A DNA stretch of 64,000 nt from NCBI GenBank assembly GCA_030447585.1, contig JAUJOO010000006.1:1-64000 (forward strand), read 5' to 3'. The position numbers and the translations under genes are program-made. The number at the start of each line of letters is the position of its first letter. Positions within the stretch are counted from its first letter, which is position 1. Source of the DNA: Nocardioidaceae bacterium (GTDB taxonomy: Bacteria; Actinomycetota; Actinomycetes; Propionibacteriales; Nocardioidaceae). Below, piece after piece: positions 16,699 to 45,702 of the stretch. The notes below the pieces were generated by a model. That model ran no database searches and was not told the DNA's origin. It saw nothing but the letters and a program-made list of their open reading frames with translations.

Positions 16699-18111
16699 TC
16701 ATCCCGAGCAGCGGGCAAGGCTCTTGGGCGGCAGGTAGAGACCGAGCCGCTGCTTGAGGCGTAGCACACGCTCGACCGAGGCGTCGAGCCTGCTCGCCGC
16801 GATCCGGCCGTCCCGAACCGCTGAGACCAGACCGCGCACGACCTCGCGTGGTTGCGGTGGCATGAGCAGCAGGTCGACGCCGGACTGGACGGCACGGACC
16901 GCGATGGCTCGCGAGCTGCCCCAGGAGGTGATTCCGCCCATGTTGAGCGCGTCCGTGATCACCACGCCGTCATACCCGAGATCTTTCCTGATCAACTCTC
17001 GCGTCAGCCGCGGCGAGATCGTGGCCGGTCTCCCGCTCGGGTCGAGCGCGGGAAGGGCCAGGTGTCCGACCATGATGATGTCGACCTGCGTCGCGACGGC
17101 GCCTGCAAAGGGTGGCCGGTCGGTGCGTCGCCACACGGCCCCCGACTTGGTGATCTTTGCAGTCCGCAGGTGGCTGTCGGTGCTTGTCGAGCCGTGTCCC
17201 GGCCAGTGCTTCGACGCGGCCGCGACACCCCGTCGTGGTAGCCGCAGATCTGTGCACGCACCATCCGTGAGACGACGGCAGGGTCGGATGAGAACGCCCG
17301 CGACCCGACCACTCCCGCGGAGCCGACCGTGTTGACGTCGGTGACCGGCGCAAGGTTGACGTTGATCCCGACCTCGACGAGGTCGTGGGCTGTGCTGCGG
17401 GCGGTACGCCGAGCCCACGGCGCGTCACCACCGAAGTCAGTCCCTGCCGGGACGTCGCTCGTGCCCGGCAGCCTTGTGACAGGCCCACCTTCTTGGTCGG
17501 CCATGATCAGGAGGGGCTCACCTGCGGCCCTGGAGGCGCGCTGTGCCGCCGCCGACATGGTACGGATCTGACGTCGGGTGCGGACGTTCTCGGAGAAGTA
17601 GATGAGGCCGCCCGGGTGAAACGAGTCGATCAAGCGGGTCGGTGCCGCCGTGCCGGCGAAAGGCAGCACCAGCAGCGGCGAACGCGGTCGCGCAGAGTCA
17701 TGGCCCGAACCCGTACCCGCACTTGATCCGGGACCGGCTCCCGCTGGGTCGGGTCGGGTACTGACTTCTGCGTGCTTCGTGTGGTGGTGGCCGGGTGTAG
17801 TGGGGGTTGACCCTGGCCGGATGTAGTGGCCGGCGCAGTCGGCGGCGTGTGGTGGCCGGCGCAGTCGGCGTGCTGCGTGTGGTGGCCGGCGCAGTCGGCG
17901 TGCTGCGTGTGGTGGTGGCCGGGGGGGTTGGCCCGCCGGGTGTGGTGGCCGGCGCGGTCGATGACGCGGTCGGCGGCACACCTCGAACGTCTGGCGACGA
18001 CGACGGACGGGGCGGCGTGGACGTCTCCTCCGGCCCTGACAGCGCACACCCGGCACCAAGCGCCAGCGCGAGCGCGGCGGTCGACACGACCCGCACCGGG
18101 TTTGGCAGCAT
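16699..18111 (-). pseudogene. GH3 beta-N-acetylhexosaminidase-like (NagZ-like) lipoprotein gene split over three frames
   Basis: Lipobox LALALGAGCALSG (ORF 17698..18111); MTLRDRV | LLVLPFAGTAAPTRLIDSFHPGGLIYF...LLIMADQEGGPVTRLPG (ORF 17004..18059) | KHWPGHGSTSTDSH...IIMVGHLALPALD...DLGYDGVVITDALNMGGI (ORF 16699..17418). Confidence 0.85.
17820..17960. repeat. Tandem repeat, about 30-bp unit GTGTGGTGGCCGGCGCAGTCGGCGTGCTGC, in the Pro/Ala/Thr linker of the GH3 lipoprotein
   Basis: Two perfect consecutive copies flanked by shorter/degenerate copies. Confidence 0.85.
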
Positions 18112-18168: not shown

Positions 18169-19623
18169 TCAGGCGTTCCGCTGCGAGCGGTAGGCGGGCG
18201 CCACGCCTTTCACTGCGTCCCCCATCCGGTGGATCCGGAGGGCGTTCGTGGACCCCGGGATACCGGGAGGGGAGCCGGCGACGATGACGACCTCCTCTCC
18301 ATCGGTGCACCGGCCGATGTCGAGCAGCGACTTGTCCACCTGCATGACCATTTCGTCGGTATGGTCGACGGTCGCCCCGAGGAACGTCTCGATGCCCCAG
18401 GTCAGTGCCAGCTGCGAGCGCACCACGGGTTCGGGCGTGAAGGCAAGCACGGGGATCTCCGAGCGGTAGCGCGACAACCTGCGAGCCGTGTCGCCCGACT
18501 GGCTGAACGCGACAAGGAACTTGGCGTCTATGCGCTCGGCAACTTCCGCCGCCGCCTTGGCGATGATGCCGCCGCGAGTGCGCGGCTCCCAGTGGATGGC
18601 TGCCATCCGCGCCAGTCCGTGGTCCTCGGTGGAGGCGATGATCCTCGCCATCGTCTCAACGGTCTCGACCGGATACTTTCCCACGCTTGTCTCACCCGAG
18701 AGCATCACCGCGTCGGCCCCGTCGAGGACGGCGTTGGCGACGTCGGAGGCCTCCGCCCGGGTCGGCCGAGGTGACGAGATCATCGACTCGAGCATCTGGG
18801 TGGCGACGACGACCGGCTTGGCGTTGCGGCGTGCGAGCTCGACGAGCCGCTTCTGCAGGAAGGGCACATCCTCGAGTGGCATCTCGACCCCCAGGTCGCC
18901 ACGAGCCACCATGACACCGTCGAAGTCCCGGATGATCTCGTTGATGTGGTCGATGGCCTGCGGCTTCTCGATCTTCGCGATGACGGGGATCCACTCCTTC
19001 TCCTCGTCCATGACGCGGCGTACGTCGACCACGTCGTCGGCGGACCGGACGAACGACAGCGCGACCATGTCCGCCCTCAGGTGCAGCGCCCAGCGCAGGT
19101 CCTCGACGTCCTTCTCACTCATCGCCGGCACGCTGACCGCGACACCGGGAAGGTTGATCCCCTTGTTGTTGCTGAGGGTTCCGCCGACCTCGACGTTGCA
19201 GATGACGTCCGTCTCGCTGACGTGGGTGGCCCGCATCCGCACCTGGCCGTCGTCGATGAGGATCTGGTCGCCAACGGCCACATCACCGGCCAGACCGTCG
19301 TACGTCGTCGAACAGCTCTGTTGCCCACCGGCGATATCGCGGGTCGTGATGGTGAACTCGTCACCGTTCTGAACGCACACCGGGCCTCCGGCGAACCTGC
19401 CGAGCCGGATCTTCGGTCCCTGCAGGTCGACGAGGATTCCGACGGCGTGCCCGCTCTCATCGGACGCCTTGCGCACCATCCGGTAGACCGATTCGTGGTC
19501 CTCGTAGCTGCCGTGGCTGAGGTTCAACCGGGCGACGTTCATACCGGCGTCGACAAGCTGACGGATCTTTCCAAGGGTGGACGTGGCAGGCCCCAGGGTG
19601 CACACGATCTTCGCTCTCCTCAC
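18169..19623 (-). CDS. pyk: Pyruvate kinase
   Basis: MRRAKIVCTLGPATSTLGKIRQLVDAGMNVARLNLSHG; KIEKPQAIDHI; MVARGDLGVEMP. Confidence 0.98.
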   Translation of the reverse strand: MRRAKIVCTLGPATSTLGKIRQLVDAGMNVARLNLSHGSYEDHESVYRMVRKASDESGHAVGILVDLQGPKIRLGRFAGGPVCVQNGDEFTITTRDIAGGQQSCSTTYDGLAGDVAVGDQILIDDGQVRMRATHVSETDVICNVEVGGTLSNNKGINLPGVAVSVPAMSEKDVEDLRWALHLRADMVALSFVRSADDVVDVRRVMDEEKEWIPVIAKIEKPQAIDHINEIIRDFDGVMVARGDLGVEMPLEDVPFLQKRLVELARRNAKPVVVATQMLESMISSPRPTRAEASDVANAVLDGADAVMLSGETSVGKYPVETVETMARIIASTEDHGLARMAAIHWEPRTRGGIIAKAAAEVAERIDAKFLVAFSQSGDTARRLSRYRSEIPVLAFTPEPVVRSQLALTWGIETFLGATVDHTDEMVMQVDKSLLDIGRCTDGEEVVIVAGSPPGIPGSTNALRIHRMGDAVKGVAPAYRSQRNA

Positions 19624-19994: not shown

Positions 19995-20492
19995 ATGACC
20001 GAGCAGAGCTGGAAGCCGCTTTTCCGCACCAGCAACTCGACCGTCACCAAGGCCTTGCAGAGCCCCGCGTTCATCGACTCGCGACGCCGCGCTGGGGCTA
20101 TCATCGGTGACTCCATCGCTCTGCGGATGCTGGCCAACTCTGTCGAGAGCGTCGACCAGACCGATGCACCCCTCTCGGCGGTTGCGGACCGGGTGTCCGC
20201 GGGCGTCCGCTTCCTGCGTGCCCGAGCGGACCGTCTCGACACCGGCGCCACGCTCCGACCCGATCCGGGCGCGCCGGGGGCTGTGCAGGGCACGGACGCG
20301 CGATCTGCGGCCGCCACAGCGGCCCGTGAGCGGCTGCTGGTCGCCGCGCTGGACTACCTGATCACGCCCGTCGACATGGTCCCGGACTTTCACGTCGGAG
20401 GCTACATCGACGATGTGCTCCTGTTGACCTGGGTTTTCGGCGCCGCAGTTCACGAGCTCGAGCCGTTCCTGGACGACGACCTGCACGCCTAG
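19995..20492 (+). CDS. YkvA/DUF1232-family protein
   Basis: AALDYLITPVDMVPDFHVGGYIDDVLLLTWV is the DUF1232 signature. Confidence 0.8.
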   Translation: MTEQSWKPLFRTSNSTVTKALQSPAFIDSRRRAGAIIGDSIALRMLANSVESVDQTDAPLSAVADRVSAGVRFLRARADRLDTGATLRPDPGAPGAVQGTDARSAAATAARERLLVAALDYLITPVDMVPDFHVGGYIDDVLLLTWVFGAAVHELEPFLDDDLHA

Positions 20493-20670
20493 TGCGCCGC
20501 GTGCCGGCGACTCGATACCGGCGATACGGGCGCGAGGCACACGCACGGTGCTCCTGATCACTGGGGAGCGCCCAGGCAGTCGCTCGAACTTGGGAAGATT
20601 CTCTCCGTTTTCTTGTGGACAAGGAAGAACTGCTCGAGGAACTGTCGGTGGTGCGGTCTAGCGTTGAGCT

Positions 20671-22020
20671 ATGTTCGACTTCGACTTCAGCGCTCTGGAC
20701 GCACCCGCCACGTTGGCGACCGCGGCTGAGGCACGTGAAGTGTCGGACCGCGCTGAGGTCGCGGTGCTGCAGTCCGCGGCGCAGTGGGCAGACCTGCACG
20801 GTCACCTCGACGAGGCAGCTTCCGGCCGGTCCTTTCCGGGGACCGAGCGACTGGTGCGCCTCGGCGGTGCCGGCACACCGGCGGTCGCCGAGTTCGCCGC
20901 CGCCGAGCTCGGCGCGGTCCTGGCGATATCGCCGGTGGCCGCAGCAAGGCTGATGCGGACGTGCTCGACCTACGACACCGGCTCCCCCGGCTGTGGAAGC
21001 GAGTACTGGCCGGCGAGGTCAAGCCATGGCTGGCCCGCAAGACCGCGGACACCACACGCCACCTGTCGGTCGAGGTCGCCGACGTCGTCGACCGCCGGGT
21101 CGCGCCTTGGGCGCATGCGGTCTCGTTGGCTCGCCTTGACGCGTTGGTCCACGCCGCGATCATCGCCGCCGACCCCGACGGGGCAGCCGCCGAGGTCGCC
21201 GCCGCCGAGGCGGCCCAAGGAGTCTGGTTGAGCCAGTCAAACGACCACGGCATCAAATCAATCCACATCCGCACCCAGGCGCCCAACGCGATCTGGTTCG
21301 ACGCGTCGATCCAGCGGGTGGCCGACAGCCTCGAGTCGTTCGGTGACAAGTCGAGCCTGGACGTCCGTCGCGCAAGAGCGGTCGGGATCCTCGCCCAGCC
21401 GCAGCAGAGCCCTTGACCTGATCGACCAGACCGTACGCCTCACCGTGGGTGACCCAGGGTCCGTACCGAGGACAGAGCGGGGTAACCGGGGTGTTCGCCC
21501 GGCGGTGAGCGGGGACGCCGCCCGCCCACCGGTAACGCTTTACATGCACCTGAGCCATGACGCCTTCACCCGCGACGACCAAGGAGTCGCCCGCTTCGAA
21601 GGCGAGGGCCCCATCACCGTCGACCAGGTGCGGCGGTGGCTCGGCCACTGCAACGTGACCGTCAAACCGGTGATCGACCTGGCGAACCAGATCCCCGTCG
21701 ACGCCTACGAGGTCCCGGACCGGCTCCGCGAAGCCATGCAGCTTCGCAGCCCCATCGACGTGTTCCCGTTCGCCACCAACGCCGGCCGCAACCGGCAAGC
21801 CGACCACAGCGTTCCCTACGTCAACCCTGGCGACGGCGGACCGCCCGGCCAGACAGCGCTGGAAAACCTCGGGCCCATGGTCGTCTTCCATCACCATCAG
21901 GACGCACGGCCGCTGGCAGGTCAGGCAAGTGTTCAACGGGGTCTTCGTCTGGCGATCACCCCACGGCCGCTACTACCTCGTCGACCACACCGGCACCCAC
22001 CCGGCCCGACGCGCGAGCTG
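20671..22020 (+). pseudogene. DUF222/13E12-type HNH endonuclease-family gene with three frameshifts
   Basis: AAARLM | ADVLDLRHRLPRLWKRVLAGEVKPWLARKTA...GILAQPQQ | ALDLIDQTVRL...VTVKPVIDLANQIPVDAYEVPDRLREA | RTHGRWQVRQVFNGVFVWRSPHGRYYLVDHTGTHPARRAS*; shifts near 20960, 21405, 21880. Confidence 0.9.
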
Positions 22021-22116
22021 ACTCGCGATCGACGTCATCCGCGTTGATCACGTCAGCTCTACAGTCCCCACGGTCCGATTCCGCTCAGGCGTGAGACCCG
22101 TATACCGGTGACGAAG

Positions 22117-22289
22117 TCAGGTTGCCAGCTTCCTCTGCCGGCCGTCCAGATGGGCCGTCACGAGGTCGTCACCATCCAGTCCGCCCAGACGACACTCACC
22201 TGAGGCGAGCCGTCCTCGTTGATCGCCACCATGTGAGCAAGCGGACTGGACTCGGTGAGTCGCCGGGCCTCGGCATTGAGCCGGCTCAT
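22117..22289 (-). pseudogene. Truncated, frameshifted F420-dependent PPOX-class oxidoreductase
   Basis: MSRLNAEARRLTESSPLAHMVAINEDGSPQVSVVWA | GLDGDDLVTAHLDGRQRKLAT*, then stop; C-terminal half absent. Confidence 0.75.
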
Positions 22290-22343
22290 GAGACCTCAAT
22301 GTGCCACAGTCGCAGTGTCACTGGGATTGATTCAGGAGGGCTG

Positions 22344-22988
22344 ATGAGCGTTCGAGACAAGTTCATGGCCGGTCTGGCGAGGCAGCTCGGCAGACCTGAG
22401 GGCCTACGCGGCCGGCTCGTCGCCCTCCGACTCAACAAAGGCAACCGCGGCACGGTGTCGGCAGCAGTCGACGCAACTGGCGTGGGGTCGGGTCAGCGGG
22501 CAGCCGATATCGGGTTCGGTGGCGGAATCGGTCTACAGATCCTGTTGGACCGGGTTGGCAGCGCGGGCCACGTGGACGGCGTCGAGCTGTCGACGACCAT
22601 GCTGAAGGCGGCCGAACGGCGCTACCGCGGCGCATGCGCCGAGGGTCGGCTGGCATTGCACGCCGGCACGCTCGGTGAGCTGCCCTTGGAGGACGAGTCG
22701 CTCGACGGGCTCATCACTGTCAACACCATCTACTTCGTCGAGGACCTGCCCGGCGCCTTCCGCGAGCTTGCTCGGGTGATCACCCCCTCTGGTCGGGCTG
22801 TCGTCGGGATGGCCGACCCGGCAGCCATGGCGGCGATGCCGTTCACGGCCCATGGCTTCCGGCTTCGACCGGTCGACGAGGTCGAACGGTTGCTGCGGGA
22901 GGCTGGACTGACTGATATTCGCCACGAGCGAGTAGGTGACGGTGACGACGCCTACCACCTCCTCATCTCCAGGCATCAAGAGCCGTAA
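22344..22988 (+). CDS. Class I SAM-dependent methyltransferase
   Basis: AADIGFGGGIGLQILLDRV, DGLITVNTIYFVEDL; AGGAGGG upstream of ATG. Confidence 0.88.
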   Translation: MSVRDKFMAGLARQLGRPEGLRGRLVALRLNKGNRGTVSAAVDATGVGSGQRAADIGFGGGIGLQILLDRVGSAGHVDGVELSTTMLKAAERRYRGACAEGRLALHAGTLGELPLEDESLDGLITVNTIYFVEDLPGAFRELARVITPSGRAVVGMADPAAMAAMPFTAHGFRLRPVDEVERLLREAGLTDIRHERVGDGDDAYHLLISRHQEP

Positions 22989-23008
22989 AGCTCAGGTGCT
23001 TCGACGAG

Positions 23009-23107
23009 TCAGCTGCGTGATCGCAGGCGACTCAGTCCTCGATGCGCTCCGGTCCAGCCGCCCTTGTTGGGACTCTTCTGCAAGGTAGCGGTGAACTGTT
23101 CCTCCAT
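23009..23107 (-). pseudogene. N-terminal remnant of a DUF1905-like gene
   Basis: MEEQFTATLQKSPNKGGWT then unrelated residues and stop after 32 aa; AGGAG upstream of ATG. Confidence 0.5.
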
Positions 23108-23136
23108 GATGCTTCTCCTAGGCTGACGCGGTCCTA

Positions 23137-24036
23137 CTAGTCGAAAGCGCGCCGTACCCACGTCAGATGCTTGGCGACGGCGCCGGGATCGTCAGTGGCT
23201 GCCTCGGCGAGCCACGTGAGGGTGAGAACACGGGTCAGCCATTTGAGCTTGGAGCCGAACCGGCCGTCGAGGGCTAGGTCGTAGTGGGCGATGACCTGGT
23301 CGATGAACGCCCGGTCTCCCACACCGATCAGGCCGGCAAAGTCGAGGACCGGATCCCCGATGACTGCGTCGCTGAAGTCGATGACACCGCTCAGCCGACT
23401 GCTCTCGGGATCAACGAGCAGGTGGTCGGGACAGATGTCGTTGTGGATGAATCGGCGTGGCCCGTCCTGCGCTGGTTCGAGTACATCGCCGCTCAGGTAC
23501 GGCTCGGCCAGGGTCAGAAGGCGGCTGTCAAGCAGCGGGCGGACCCTGCTGGCGACGCTCGCAAGACCGCTGGCAAGCACGCTCCAGGGCTCGGGCTCCC
23601 ACCCCAGAGGTGTCGGCGGGACTCGAGTGGCGTCGACGCGGTGCAGCCGGCTCAGCATGCGGCCGACGTCCTTCGCCAGCCCGTCCTGGTCGAGTGACTC
23701 GATCTGGTCGGCGCCCTTACCCCACAGGAGGCGGTAGCCAACGAAGGCGTAAGGGAACGCCGCAGACGGCCGGCCGACATACTCGAACCGGGGCACCATC
23801 GCGCCCAACGCCTCAGCCATCAGCGGCATGATTTGGGTCTCACGAAGCAGCCAGGGAACTCGCTCCGCTCGCTTCGGGAAGCGGAAGACCCAGTTCTCGC
23901 CCAGCATGAACAGCTCGTTGTCCCAGCCGGCGGCCAGTGGCCGCGCCTGTCGGTTCTCAAGAGTGGGGAACTGCTCGCTGACGAGGTCAGAGACCAGCGC
24001 TGCGTCGAGGTACCGATCTGAGGATCCAGGACTCAC
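23137..24036 (-). CDS. Aminoglycoside phosphotransferase (APH)-family kinase
   Basis: RFIHNDICPDHLLVDPESSRLSGVIDFSDAVIGDPVLDFAGL, the APH/HD-x4-N and IDF motifs. Confidence 0.85.
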   Translation of the reverse strand: MSPGSSDRYLDAALVSDLVSEQFPTLENRQARPLAAGWDNELFMLGENWVFRFPKRAERVPWLLRETQIMPLMAEALGAMVPRFEYVGRPSAAFPYAFVGYRLLWGKGADQIESLDQDGLAKDVGRMLSRLHRVDATRVPPTPLGWEPEPWSVLASGLASVASRVRPLLDSRLLTLAEPYLSGDVLEPAQDGPRRFIHNDICPDHLLVDPESSRLSGVIDFSDAVIGDPVLDFAGLIGVGDRAFIDQVIAHYDLALDGRFGSKLKWLTRVLTLTWLAEAATDDPGAVAKHLTWVRRAFD

Positions 24037-24557
24037 GGCCCCGTGCTGCCAAGGCTGTGAATGCCTCGCCTGGCCAGCAGTTCGGTCCTCTTCCAAGCGT
24101 AGGCGACCATCCAGTGGGGGTGGTAGCGGTACATGCGGATATCGTCGCCCCACTCCAGTGGCGAGCTGTCGTAATGGGCGGTCCAGTGGCGGATGGTCTC
24201 TTCCCAGTACGGGTCGGACTCTTGCATCTGCTCCACCCGGCCATGACTGAAGACGGCCAGCTCCTCGTTGTCCACATGGGCGACGCTGACCGCGGGCCGG
24301 GCTTGCATGTGCCGCGCCTTTGCAGCGGTGCCGCTCGTACTGAAGGTCCAGGTGCCGTGCAGGAAGTGGCCGTCCAGCGCGCTGATCCGAGGCTCGGCCC
24401 GAGCCGTGACGGTGGCGACGCTGACCACCTTCATCCCGGTCAGCAGCGCACGAGGTCGCGCGCGGACAAGGTGCGGTCGTCGTTGATGATGCCGCGAAGG
24501 TGGTCGGTCGTCCAACAGCCTCTGCAGGGCGGCTATCTCGTCGGCGGTCTCCAGCAT
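24033..24557 (-). CDS. Pyridoxamine 5'-phosphate oxidase-family protein with two apparently compensating frameshifts near the N-terminus
   Basis: TGMKVVSVATVTARAEPRISALDGHFLHGTWTFSTSGTAAKARHMQARPAVSVAHVDNEELAVFSHGR; alternate frame reads DHLRGIINDDRTLSARDLV. Confidence 0.7.
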   Translation of the reverse strand: MLETADEIAALQRLLDDRPPSRHHQRRPHLVRARPRALLTGMKVVSVATVTARAEPRISALDGHFLHGTWTFSTSGTAAKARHMQARPAVSVAHVDNEELAVFSHGRVEQMQESDPYWEETIRHWTAHYDSSPLEWGDDIRMYRYHPHWMVAYAWKRTELLARRGIHSLGSTGP

Positions 24558-24601
24558 GGCACCCACGCTACGAAGGCTGTCTTGATCGTTCTTGCCTAGG
24601 C

Positions 24602-25675
24602 TCAGCCGAGGCTTTCGCCGACCAGATCACCGATGAGGTAGGTCAGCGCTGCGGCCACTCCGCCGAGCACCAGCTGGCGGATGCCTCCGTACCACCAGGC
24701 GCGAGTCGTGACAGAGACTGTCGCCCCGTCGGCGAAGAGTGCCACCAAGGCTCACGATGAGCGCGGGCCACAGAGCGTCAGCGCCGAGGAGATAGGGCAC
24801 GACCGGCAGGGCGGCCCCGACGGCGAACGACCAGACGGACTGCTGCCACGACTGATCGTTCTTGTCCGGGTCGACGCCGAGGCTCCTCACGGGCGTGCCG
24901 ACCAGAGCCGGGGATCTTTGTACAGCCTCACCAGCCTGGTTGAGCCGCCGTTGGTTGGCGAGGTCGCGGTCAATGCCCCGGTCGACGTACATCTGGGCGA
25001 GCCTCGGCCTGCTCTGCCTGTGGCTTCGGCCAAGCTCTCGCCGAGCTCGATCTCGATCTCCTTCGCCGTGTACTCCGAGCCTGGCTGGCAACCTCCGTAC
25101 TCCAGGCGCGAGTCGTCATCGAGACGTCGCCCCGAAGGCGAAGTGCCGGCCAGGCTGACGATGAGCGAGGACAGAGCGTCAGCGCCGAGGAGATAGGGCA
25201 CGACCGGCAGTGCCGCCGACGGCGAACGACACGAACGCAGACTGCTGACGACTGGCGACGGCAGTTGTCCGGGTCGACGCCAGACGGGCGTGCACCTTCA
25301 CGGCAAGCCGAAGGTCGTGCCGGCCGCCACCTGGCCGCGAGGTGACAATGCCCCGGTCGACGTACATGTGGGCGAGCTCGGCCTGCTCTGCCTGCTGCTC
25401 GGCCAAGATCTCGCGCTGCTCGATCTCGATCTCCTTCGCCGTGAGCCTGGCTATTGTCGCAGCCATCGAGAACGGCGCCGGCGGCCAGCCCGGCCAGCCC
25501 TACGAGTCTGTGTCCTGGTGCCCGCCCTGGGTGCCGCCGACCACACCGGCAATGAGCGCGAAGTTGGACACCAGACCGTCCATGGCACCGAAGCCGGTGT
25601 GTCAACCAGCCACCGGTTTGGGGTGTTCGTGGTCGTCCAGGTGGATCGTTCGCAAGACGCAGGAGCTCAGCCATG
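24602..25675 (-). pseudogene. VIT1/CCC1-family (Fe/Mn transporter) gene, multiply frameshifted and carrying an internal tandem duplication
   Basis: GFGAMDGLVSNFALIAGVVGGTQGGHQD (frame-corrected at about 25500-25600), AKEIEIEQREILAEQQAEQAELAHMYVDRG, VPYLLGADALWPALIVSL, AAALTYLIGDLVGESLG*. Confidence 0.88.
24673..25447. repeat. Diverged direct tandem duplication (copy A about 24673-25082, copy B about 25083-25447) inside the VIT pseudogene
   Basis: Shared blocks: cagagcgtcagcgccgaggagatagggcacgaccggcag (24771 and 25172), gtccgggtcgacgcc, atgccccggtcgacgtacat (24974 and 25349), ctcgatctcgatctccttcgccgtg (25046 and 25419). Confidence 0.9.
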
Positions 25676-25785
25676 AGGGCATTGTCGGAGCTTCGGCCGA
25701 CGACGGGACCCAGGTCTGCCTAAGTCTGTTGAGCTGGGCGCTGCGGTGGAACCGACGTTTCCAACCGGACGCCGGGTCTGAACAG

Positions 25786-26745
25786 CTAGGTCTGGGACTC
25801 AGCTGTGGACGCCGCCTCGGGAGAGGTGTCGACATCGTCGGGGGATGCACTCGTCGGCTCTGCGTCGTCCCCGGCCTTGTCGGTGTCCTCGGAGGAGACG
25901 GTGTCCGGGCCGTCTCGGTCGGGCAGTGGCTCCACATCGGTTTCTCGGCCGGGGTGGCGACGACCGACGATCACGAAGTATGCCGCCGCTGCCATGAAGA
26001 CGATGGCGCTGGTCCAGATGTTGAGCCTGACGCCGAAGAAGTGGTTCGCGTCGTCGATGCGTAGATACTCGATCCAGGCCCGCCCGAGTGTGTAGGCCAT
26101 GACATAGAGGGCGAACGCGCGACCGTAACCGAGCTTCAGCCGCCGATCGAGGTAGATGACGATGCCGGCCACTCCGAGGTCCCACAGGGACTCGTACAGG
26201 AACGTGGGATGGAATGTCGGCTGGTCCACGAACTCCGAGGGGCGAAGCTCACGGTCGATTTTGAGGCCCCACGGCAGTGACGTCGGCTTGCCGTACAGCT
26301 CCTGGTTGAAGTAGTTGCCCCACCGGCCAAGCCCTTGGGCGATCACGATGCCCGGCGCGAGGGCGTCGGCGAAAGCACGGAACTTGATGTGTCGACGCCG
26401 GCAGCCGATCCAGGCGCCTAGTGCACCCAGGGCGATCGCGCCCCAGATCCCGAGACCGCCCCGCCAGATGTACAGGGCAGTGACGGGATCCTTACCCTCA
26501 CCGAAGTAGAGCTGAGGGTCGGTGAGCACGTGGTACAGCCGTCCGCCGACCAGTCCGAAGGGGACCATCCAGACAGCCACGTCGCCGACCGTGCCGGGCC
26601 GTCCGCCTCGTGCGACCCACCGTCGATCGCCGAGCCACACCGCCACGACGATGCCGAGGATGATGCACAGGGCGTACCCCCGGATAGGCAGCGGCCCGAG
26701 GTACCAGACGCCGTTGCTTGGGCTGGGGATGGAGGCTAAGAACAT
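25786..26745 (-). CDS. lgt: Prolipoprotein diacylglyceryl transferase
   Basis: LGPLPIRGYALCIILGIVVAVWLG; GRWGNYFNQELYGKPT; acidic C-terminal tail. Confidence 0.95.
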   Translation of the reverse strand: MFLASIPSPSNGVWYLGPLPIRGYALCIILGIVVAVWLGDRRWVARGGRPGTVGDVAVWMVPFGLVGGRLYHVLTDPQLYFGEGKDPVTALYIWRGGLGIWGAIALGALGAWIGCRRRHIKFRAFADALAPGIVIAQGLGRWGNYFNQELYGKPTSLPWGLKIDRELRPSEFVDQPTFHPTFLYESLWDLGVAGIVIYLDRRLKLGYGRAFALYVMAYTLGRAWIEYLRIDDANHFFGVRLNIWTSAIVFMAAAAYFVIVGRRHPGRETDVEPLPDRDGPDTVSSEDTDKAGDDAEPTSASPDDVDTSPEAASTAESQT

Positions 26746-38463: not shown

Positions 38464-40358
38464 CTAGTCGTTGACCGACAGTCGCACCTGGGTCACCGCG
38501 TAGTCGCCTTCGACCCCCGCGGTGATCCCGAACGCCTGGATCGGCGTGATGTTCTCGATCACCTCGGGGGGAGTGCCGTCATCTTCCAGCGCCTGCACGA
38601 CCTGCTCCTCGACGGAGTCGAAGTTGAAGAACATGACGAACTCCTGGCTCGCGGCGTCTTCGGTGACCGACTGGAAGGCCGCACTGTCGCCGAGAGTTCC
38701 GTCCTCCGACATCTTGTTCGCGTAGTCGTCGTTCGTGGCGACGACGATCCCGTCGTCAAGGTCCTTCCTCACGAGCGGCAGCTCTGCGCCGGTCTCCTCC
38801 TGGACGAGTGATATGACCTTGTCGTAGACGGCGTTCAGCTCGGCCGGATCGTTGGTGAGGCGCATCCCTATATTGAGCAGGCTAGGGTCGTCCAGCCCCT
38901 CGGGGGTAAGCCCCTCCGCGTCCATCGCCAACATGATGTTGTCACCGAGGACGGTCGCCAGGTCTTCGGGCAGGCTCAGACCCGTCTCGGCCTCGAACTG
39001 GGCGATCTGTGACTCGAAGTCGACGCCTTGGCTCTTGCCGGCGTCGATGAGCTGCTGCCAGCCTTCGTCGATCCGCGCCTCGCCGCCGCTCTGCGACGCG
39101 GCAAACGCCGTGCTCTCGGGGAGGTCGACGATCTTGTTGTCGCCAGCCTCGATGTCGGTCTGGTCGCCGAAGACGCTCGCCACCACCTCGACGCTGTCGC
39201 TCTCGAAGCGGAATGTTGCCGACGCACGCTGGTAGGAGTTGAGGAGGAAGTCCAGGTCACCAGTCGCGAACTGGGGCGGGGCGAAGAGCCGAACCGAGTC
39301 CTTGATGTCGACCCACATGGTGGCGAACCCCAACCCGCCAAGCGAGTCGAGGTCTGACTTGAAGTTGTCGTCGTCGGCCAGCGAGCCCTCGGCCACGCTG
39401 TCGGCGTACTCGTCCGCCAAAGACTGGGTCTCAGCGACCAGCGCGTAGTCGCCGCTGAACGCGACCCCGGAGTCGCTGTTCCCCTCGTCACACGCGGCCA
39501 GTTTCTCCAGCCCATCCTTGGCGGCACCCTCGTCAGTGACCTCCAGGGCGAACAACGGCTCTGGCTCCTCGGCCCCTTCCTCGCTGGATGGCATGCCAGC
39601 GACGGCGAACTTGTATCCCAGCCAGGGTTTGATGTCCTCGTCGAAGCTGAGCTCACAGCCACCCTCCTCCGTCGCCTCTTCGAACAAGGACTCGCGAACG
39701 TCCGACTCGGCGTCCGTGACGTCCACATTCTCCTTGAAGGCCGGGAAGTGGTTGAGGAACTGCACCGCCCGCACCTTCTGCTCGGCGGAGGGGTCGAGGT
39801 CGACACCGATGTAGAACAACGCTTCGGCGGGCACAGCCTCGGCGGCCGCCGGATCGGAGCTGAACGTGTTGAACGGGTCGAGCTTGTAGACCGCGAACGC
39901 GCCTCCGGCGAGCAACACGGCCACCACGAGACCGATGATCAACGCCTTGGCGCCGTGACCTTTCGCCGGCCGCTGCTGGTATGACGGCTCGCCCGAGCCG
40001 TAGCCACCGGGACCGTACTGACCCGGACCGCCGGACCACCCGGACCGTACTGACCCGGACCACCCGGACCGTACTGACCCGGACCACCCGGACCGTACCC
40101 GGACCACCCGGACCGTACTGACCCGGACCACCCGGACCGTACTGACCCGGACCACCGGGACCACCTGACCCGGACCATACGGACCAGTACTGACCGGACC
40201 GCCGGACCGTACTGACCCGGACCACCCGGACCGTGACCCTGACCCCGGACCACCTGGACCGTACTGACCGTACTGACCCGGACCATACGGGCCAGGGCCT
40301 CCCGGACCGGGACCTGCTGGCCCGTAGCCACCGCCGGAGGAGGAGTGTGATCGGACAT
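38464..40358 (-). CDS. DUF3352-type membrane-anchored protein; Gly/Pro/Tyr-rich repeat N-terminus with apparent frame breaks
   Basis: MSDHTP start at 40358; TM KALIIGLVVAVLLAGGAFAVYKL; PAEALFYIGVDLDPSAEQKVRAVQFL; ORF to 38464. GPGQYGPGG repeats fall in different frames. Confidence 0.75.
40005..40315. repeat. Tandem repeat array, 24-bp-class units (CCCGGACCACCCGGACCGTACTGA) encoding GPGQYGPGG on the minus strand
   Basis: At least six near-identical copies, with irregular copies of non-multiple-of-3 length. Confidence 0.9.
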
Positions 40359-44764: not shown

Positions 44765-45702
44765 TCAGTCCGCACCGCGGATGACCTCGAGTGCCGCGAC
44801 GAGGTCGTCGGCGTACGGCGACTCGAACTCCACCCACTCCCGGGTCTCCGGATGTGTGAACCCCAACCGCACAGCGTGTAGCCACTGGCGGCTGAGTGCG
44901 ACCCGGGTGGCCAGCACCGGATCTGCGCCGTAGGTGAGGTCACCGACGCAGGGGTGGTGCAACGCGCTCAGGTGGACTCGGATCTGGTGAGTGCGGCCGG
45001 TCTCCAGCTTGATCTCCAGCAACGACGCGAAACGATGCGCCTCCAACGTGTCGTAGTGGGTGACGCTGTGCCGGCCACCCTGGCCGACAGTGAACTTGTA
45101 GTCGTGCTTGACGTGTCTCACGATCGGGGCGTCGATCGTGCCGTGCAAGGGGTCGAGATGACCCTGGACCAGCGCATGGTAGGTCTTGTCGACGGACCTG
45201 CTCCGGAAGGCGCTCTTGAGGCCGGCGTACGCGAACTCGGACTTGGCGACCACCATCAGCCCGCTGGTGCCGACGTCGAGCCGCTGCACTATGCCCTGGC
45301 GCTCAGGCACTCCTGACGTCGCAACCCGGTATCCCGCCCCCGCGAGATGACCGAGCACGGTTGGCCCCGTCCAACCGACGCTGGGATGGGCGGCCACACC
45401 GACGGGCTTGTCTACGACCACGAGGGCATCATCGTCGTGAACGATGCGGACTCCCTCGACGACCTCGCTGCGGACATGCGCCGCTTGGACCGGAGGAGGG
45501 ATGGTCACCTCGAGGAAGGCGCCCTCCTCCACCCGATAGGACTTGGCCGGGGGTTTCCGTCGACCCTCACATCGCCCGCGGCAACCAGCTCGGCGGCCTT
45601 GGTGCGCGACAGGCCGAAGAGGCGTGCGAGGGCCGCGTCGACGCGTTCGCCGGCAAGACCGCTCGGCACGTGGAGCACCTTGCGGCCGGCCGGCTCAGTC
45701 AT
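44765..45702 (-). CDS. RluA/RluD-family pseudouridine synthase (S4 domain + catalytic domain), disrupted by a 1-nt frameshift
   Basis: S4 part [35 protein letters not shown] (other frame) then [14 protein letters not shown]...[43 protein letters not shown]. Confidence 0.85.

Follow-up and report, generated by a model that had tools for sequence, protein, structure and literature searches.

Under-collapsed copies that arise from read errors have been described as 'homotype' false duplications, a type that is defined by very low read depth and of which an N gap between the copies is a common characteristic (PMC9516828). The damaged VIT/CCC1 transporter gene described here lies in the first 64,000 nucleotides of contig JAUJOO010000006.1 from a Nocardioidaceae bacterium, hereafter the window. 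It resembles such duplications in its adjacent copies of what appears to be one locus, in its many read-type errors, and in the unmerged overlaps found elsewhere in the assembly. It differs in that no N separates the copies, and in that it belongs to a bacterial metagenome draft and not to a vertebrate genome. With a bacterial pseudogene that carries an internal tandem duplication the locus shares frameshifts and a partial head-to-tail repeat, yet here there is no excess of substitutions, the damage enters the neighbouring gene, and housekeeping genes are frameshifted as well. Compared with the VIT/CCC1 family (PF01988), three pieces match, identity to the intact orthologue of a congener is 70–72%, and the position after lgt is the usual one, whereas indels disrupt the frame throughout and residues 86–223 occur twice.

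The three pieces lie on the minus strand and match PF01988 above the curated cut-off. Together with the identity to the VIT protein of the congener (G001), these matches confirm the VIT/CCC1 assignment made in the first-pass annotation. In the direction of the gene, a single frameshifted N-terminal part (25451–25685, minus strand, residues ~3–81), as placed by frameshift-aware alignment whose breaks in residues 1–27, a poorly conserved stretch, should not be relied on, is followed by two consecutive copies of residues ~86–223. The first of these, copy B (25091–25450, minus strand), is rich in deletions; the second, copy A (24673–25098, minus strand), leads into a single, clean C-terminal end (24605–24672, minus strand, residues ~224–249) defined by the same frameshift-aware alignment. 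Both copies were delimited from repeat families and from local and frameshift-aware alignment. Aligned to G001 VIT, the locus thus contains two spellings, one of residues 3–223 (25685–25091) and one of residues 86–249 (25098–24605), which overlap by ~410 nt. Nine repeat families (D1–D9) recur at spacings of ~399–407 and ~373–375. The two copies align locally with a score of 350, far above chance (maximum 31 in 200 shuffles). Between them, an alignment of 423 columns contains 24 gap events as well as 37 substitutions, with private indels in each copy. The head-to-tail double copy, the separate indels of the copies and the single N-terminal part before them had all been proposed from the letters alone, and all are present, with boundaries near those first given. 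A short similarity (about GGAGTAC-GG) is found at the ends of the repeat unit, and the region with the invariant GEYTS motif is lost through a 21-nt deletion at 25461.

A gene freed from selection gathers substitutions alongside indels. The damaged VIT retains no single open frame of ~240–250 residues; its frameshift-aware alignment to G001 requires ~28 frame changes across both spellings and 10 in-frame indels. The aligned codons nevertheless show 70% and 72% amino acid identity to the G001 protein in the two spellings, the same level as the intact neighbours (Lgt 73%, SCO1 71%, TrpA 75%) and as pairs of intact VIT orthologues (70–71%). An intact VIT core was also damaged artificially, in a simulation that allows for the choice of the best frame by a frameshift-aware aligner. 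The observed score of 429 and identity of 72.3% correspond to simulated indels with no substitutions (436 ± 20 and 69.7 ± 1.9%), while 2, 5 or 10 substitutions per indel lower the identity to 61.8, 52.6 and 43.3%, respectively. Mutational decay would place the identity at about 43–53%. Similarly, the ratio of gaps to substitutions between the copies (24:37) contrasts with 19–24:159–172 in orthologue pairs (p from 1e-6 to 2e-5). The substitution excess expected of a pseudogene produced by mutational decay is absent, and the fossil reading fails because identity equals that of intact genes despite ~28 frameshifts. The many differences between the copies had been taken as a sign against an assembly problem; this argument is reversed, since indels without matching substitutions are the pattern of uncorrected reads.

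The noise is not confined to VIT. A gene of the PNPOx family (PF01243; 24033–24566, minus strand) has a clean 3' part and a 5' part (24443–24566) that lies within the damaged patch. An intact paralogue is present in the same genome (scaffold C4, 77797–78326; 81% identical). Below position 24443, the 400 columns that align the PNPOx gene with this paralogue contain 63 substitutions and 2 gaps; above it, 158 columns contain 20 and 6, respectively (p = 0.006). This excess of gaps places the start of the noise within PNPOx. Judged from these counts and from the VIT alignment, the patch of dense short indels (24443–25685, not assigned to a strand) takes in the PNPOx 5' part, the spacer and almost the whole VIT gene, and ends before lgt (25786–26745, minus strand), which is intact with no frameshifts in frameshift-aware alignment. 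In a pseudogene the damage would be confined to the unused gene, but here it reaches PNPOx, and rho and rluD contain frame breaks too.

The genome is a scaffolded 3.1-Mb draft in 55 contigs, 88.6% complete, and its assembly features were sampled in 488 kb of its scaffolds. Intrinsic frame segmentation had too high a background for counting frameshifts and was used only to place breaks; it led to the N runs. Sixteen N runs are exactly 100 long, and six of these are flanked on both sides by an exact 55-nt repeat (C17 at 75984–76083, 118126–118225 and 139462–139561; C12 at 40811 and 84348; C16 at 39047). These repeats across gaps are overlapping ends that were joined without merging, and they suggest de Bruijn assembly at k = 55. 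Membership of the AVDCRST soil-crust set was considered and dropped, as nothing connects the genome to it and MEGAHIT was the only assembler of that study. Three joins consist of a single N (C4 at 76199, 79310 and 85724). The first splits atpA in mid-gene, and a genome search for the F1-ATPase nucleotide-binding domain returned only half a domain and one further match that coincides with rho. Between the first and second joins lies a 3.1-kb piece with the intact PNPOx paralogue, and in a tandem pair of 1306 bp (98.9% identity) the third join sits where the first copy ends. A plasmid search gave one match only, which was weak and partial.

Single-base frame breaks occur in rho, where the site is a run of six G, in coxS and in an ABC transporter gene, and likewise in three genes of the window. 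Of these, rluD is broken at 45554 beside a run of five C, with both sides 76–83% identical, and GH3 (16708–18000) and DUF222 (20671–22018) carry frameshifts; all three keep undiminished identity to the genome G014. The frameshifts in GH3, DUF222 and rluD are probably sequence errors. When the comparison with G014 was made in both directions, frame breaks appeared in 15 against 3 genes unfiltered and in 9 against 2 after coding filtering, several of the breaks on both sides being artefacts of ORF choice. Many breaks (murD, hisB, a trp-operon protein and antisense ORFs) were judged to be artefacts of overlapping ORFs and were left uncounted. Two further repeats in the window are no VIT-like cases: the noisy tandem repeat at 17767–17960 is the low-complexity linker of GH3, and that at 39995–40333 is a low-complexity linker of a DUF3352 protein. 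The latter is rich in Gly, Pro and Tyr, lies at the N-terminus of the protein and is partly out of frame.

Taken together, the indel-only damage, its crossing of a gene border, and the unmerged overlaps and frameshifts elsewhere in the assembly argue for an artefact and not a fossil; the apparent VIT fossil with its half-duplication is very probably a product of assembly and no real feature. Like its relatives, the organism most likely has a single normal VIT beside lgt, and a scaffold patch of ~1.2 kb (about 24443–25685) would have been written from uncorrected, indel-rich sequence, the noise presumably stemming from single-molecule reads or gap filling. Two overlapping noisy versions, one reaching from the N-terminus as far as residue ~223, the other from residue ~86 as far as the C-terminus, were very probably set end to end without merging, their errors hiding the overlap. 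Concatenation in place of merging would explain why the ~410-nt overlap appears twice, each time with its own errors. The patch works like a homotype false duplication, with error-rich, complementary and under-merged copies of a locus that the relatives suggest to be single-copy; with no N between the copies, it is not filed as a strict member of that type. Two observations stand against an artefact. No N occurs at 24400–25700, while the visible joins elsewhere on the scaffold have N, and the 37 substitutions between the copies are somewhat many for read noise alone, although alignment next to gaps inflates this count. As for the first-pass remark that a simple assembly collapse was unlikely, collapse is indeed not what is seen; the fault would nonetheless lie in the assembly, as a failure to merge.

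The duplicated unit alone (residues 86–223) would look alike after a real tandem duplication. A recent, inactivating partial duplication of residues ~86–223 in the only VIT, overlaid with sequence errors as the repeat got in the way of assembly or polishing, is the best placed of the alternatives and still improbable. Assembly and polishing do fail at tandem repeats, and the similarity at the unit ends would fit such an event, but the two spellings jointly cover residues 3–249 exactly as two overlapping fragments would, other unmerged overlaps exist in the same assembly, and the noise reaches past the repeat into PNPOx. Even less credit is due to the history first suggested, a genuine pseudogene in which a partial tandem duplication (residues ~86–223), or the fusion of two tandem VIT genes by deletion, came before the decay of both copies. 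That the copies are clearly related while each has differences of its own would fit it, and PF01988 has no match in 4 of 40 relatives; against this, identity has stayed at the level of intact genes, the damage extends into PNPOx, and none of the relatives' lgt loci showed a tandem VIT pair. With the overlaps and housekeeping frameshifts elsewhere, this history is not supported. That the gene encodes a functional variant whose internal repeat is read by programmed frameshifting is scarcely credible: the seeming preservation of the amino acid sequence between indels is its only point, whereas dozens of frame changes would have to be read through, conserved segments are lost (the GEYTS region at 25461), and no relative with an internally repeated VIT was found. 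The locus serves as a warning only, namely that indel-rich patches in metagenome drafts can mimic fossil genes and internal duplications; indels without substitutions, compared against intact neighbours, provide a simple discriminating test. GH3, DUF222, rluD and rho, which also look like pseudogenes in this assembly, should not be taken as gene loss.

A PF01988 search found no other VIT in this genome. The VIT frame is intact in G001, G002 and G004, and in related genomes, from within the genus and from the family, VIT lies downstream of lgt, a conserved place in which lgt is the upstream neighbour. Of 80 named lgt loci from Nocardioidaceae and Streptomycetaceae (including Streptomyces), the nearest of which are from Nocardioidaceae metagenome-assembled genomes, 24 have VIT downstream of lgt at a distance of at most 4 kb; the linkage of the two genes across these loci (L080–L159) is possibly worth a look. 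On the side away from lgt, pyruvate kinase adjoins VIT in G004 and G014. Pyruvate kinase is located at 18184–19623 in the window, and the stretch at 20000–24600 places DUF222, a methyltransferase, an APH-type kinase and PNPOx between it and VIT, genes that G004 and G014 lack at this position.
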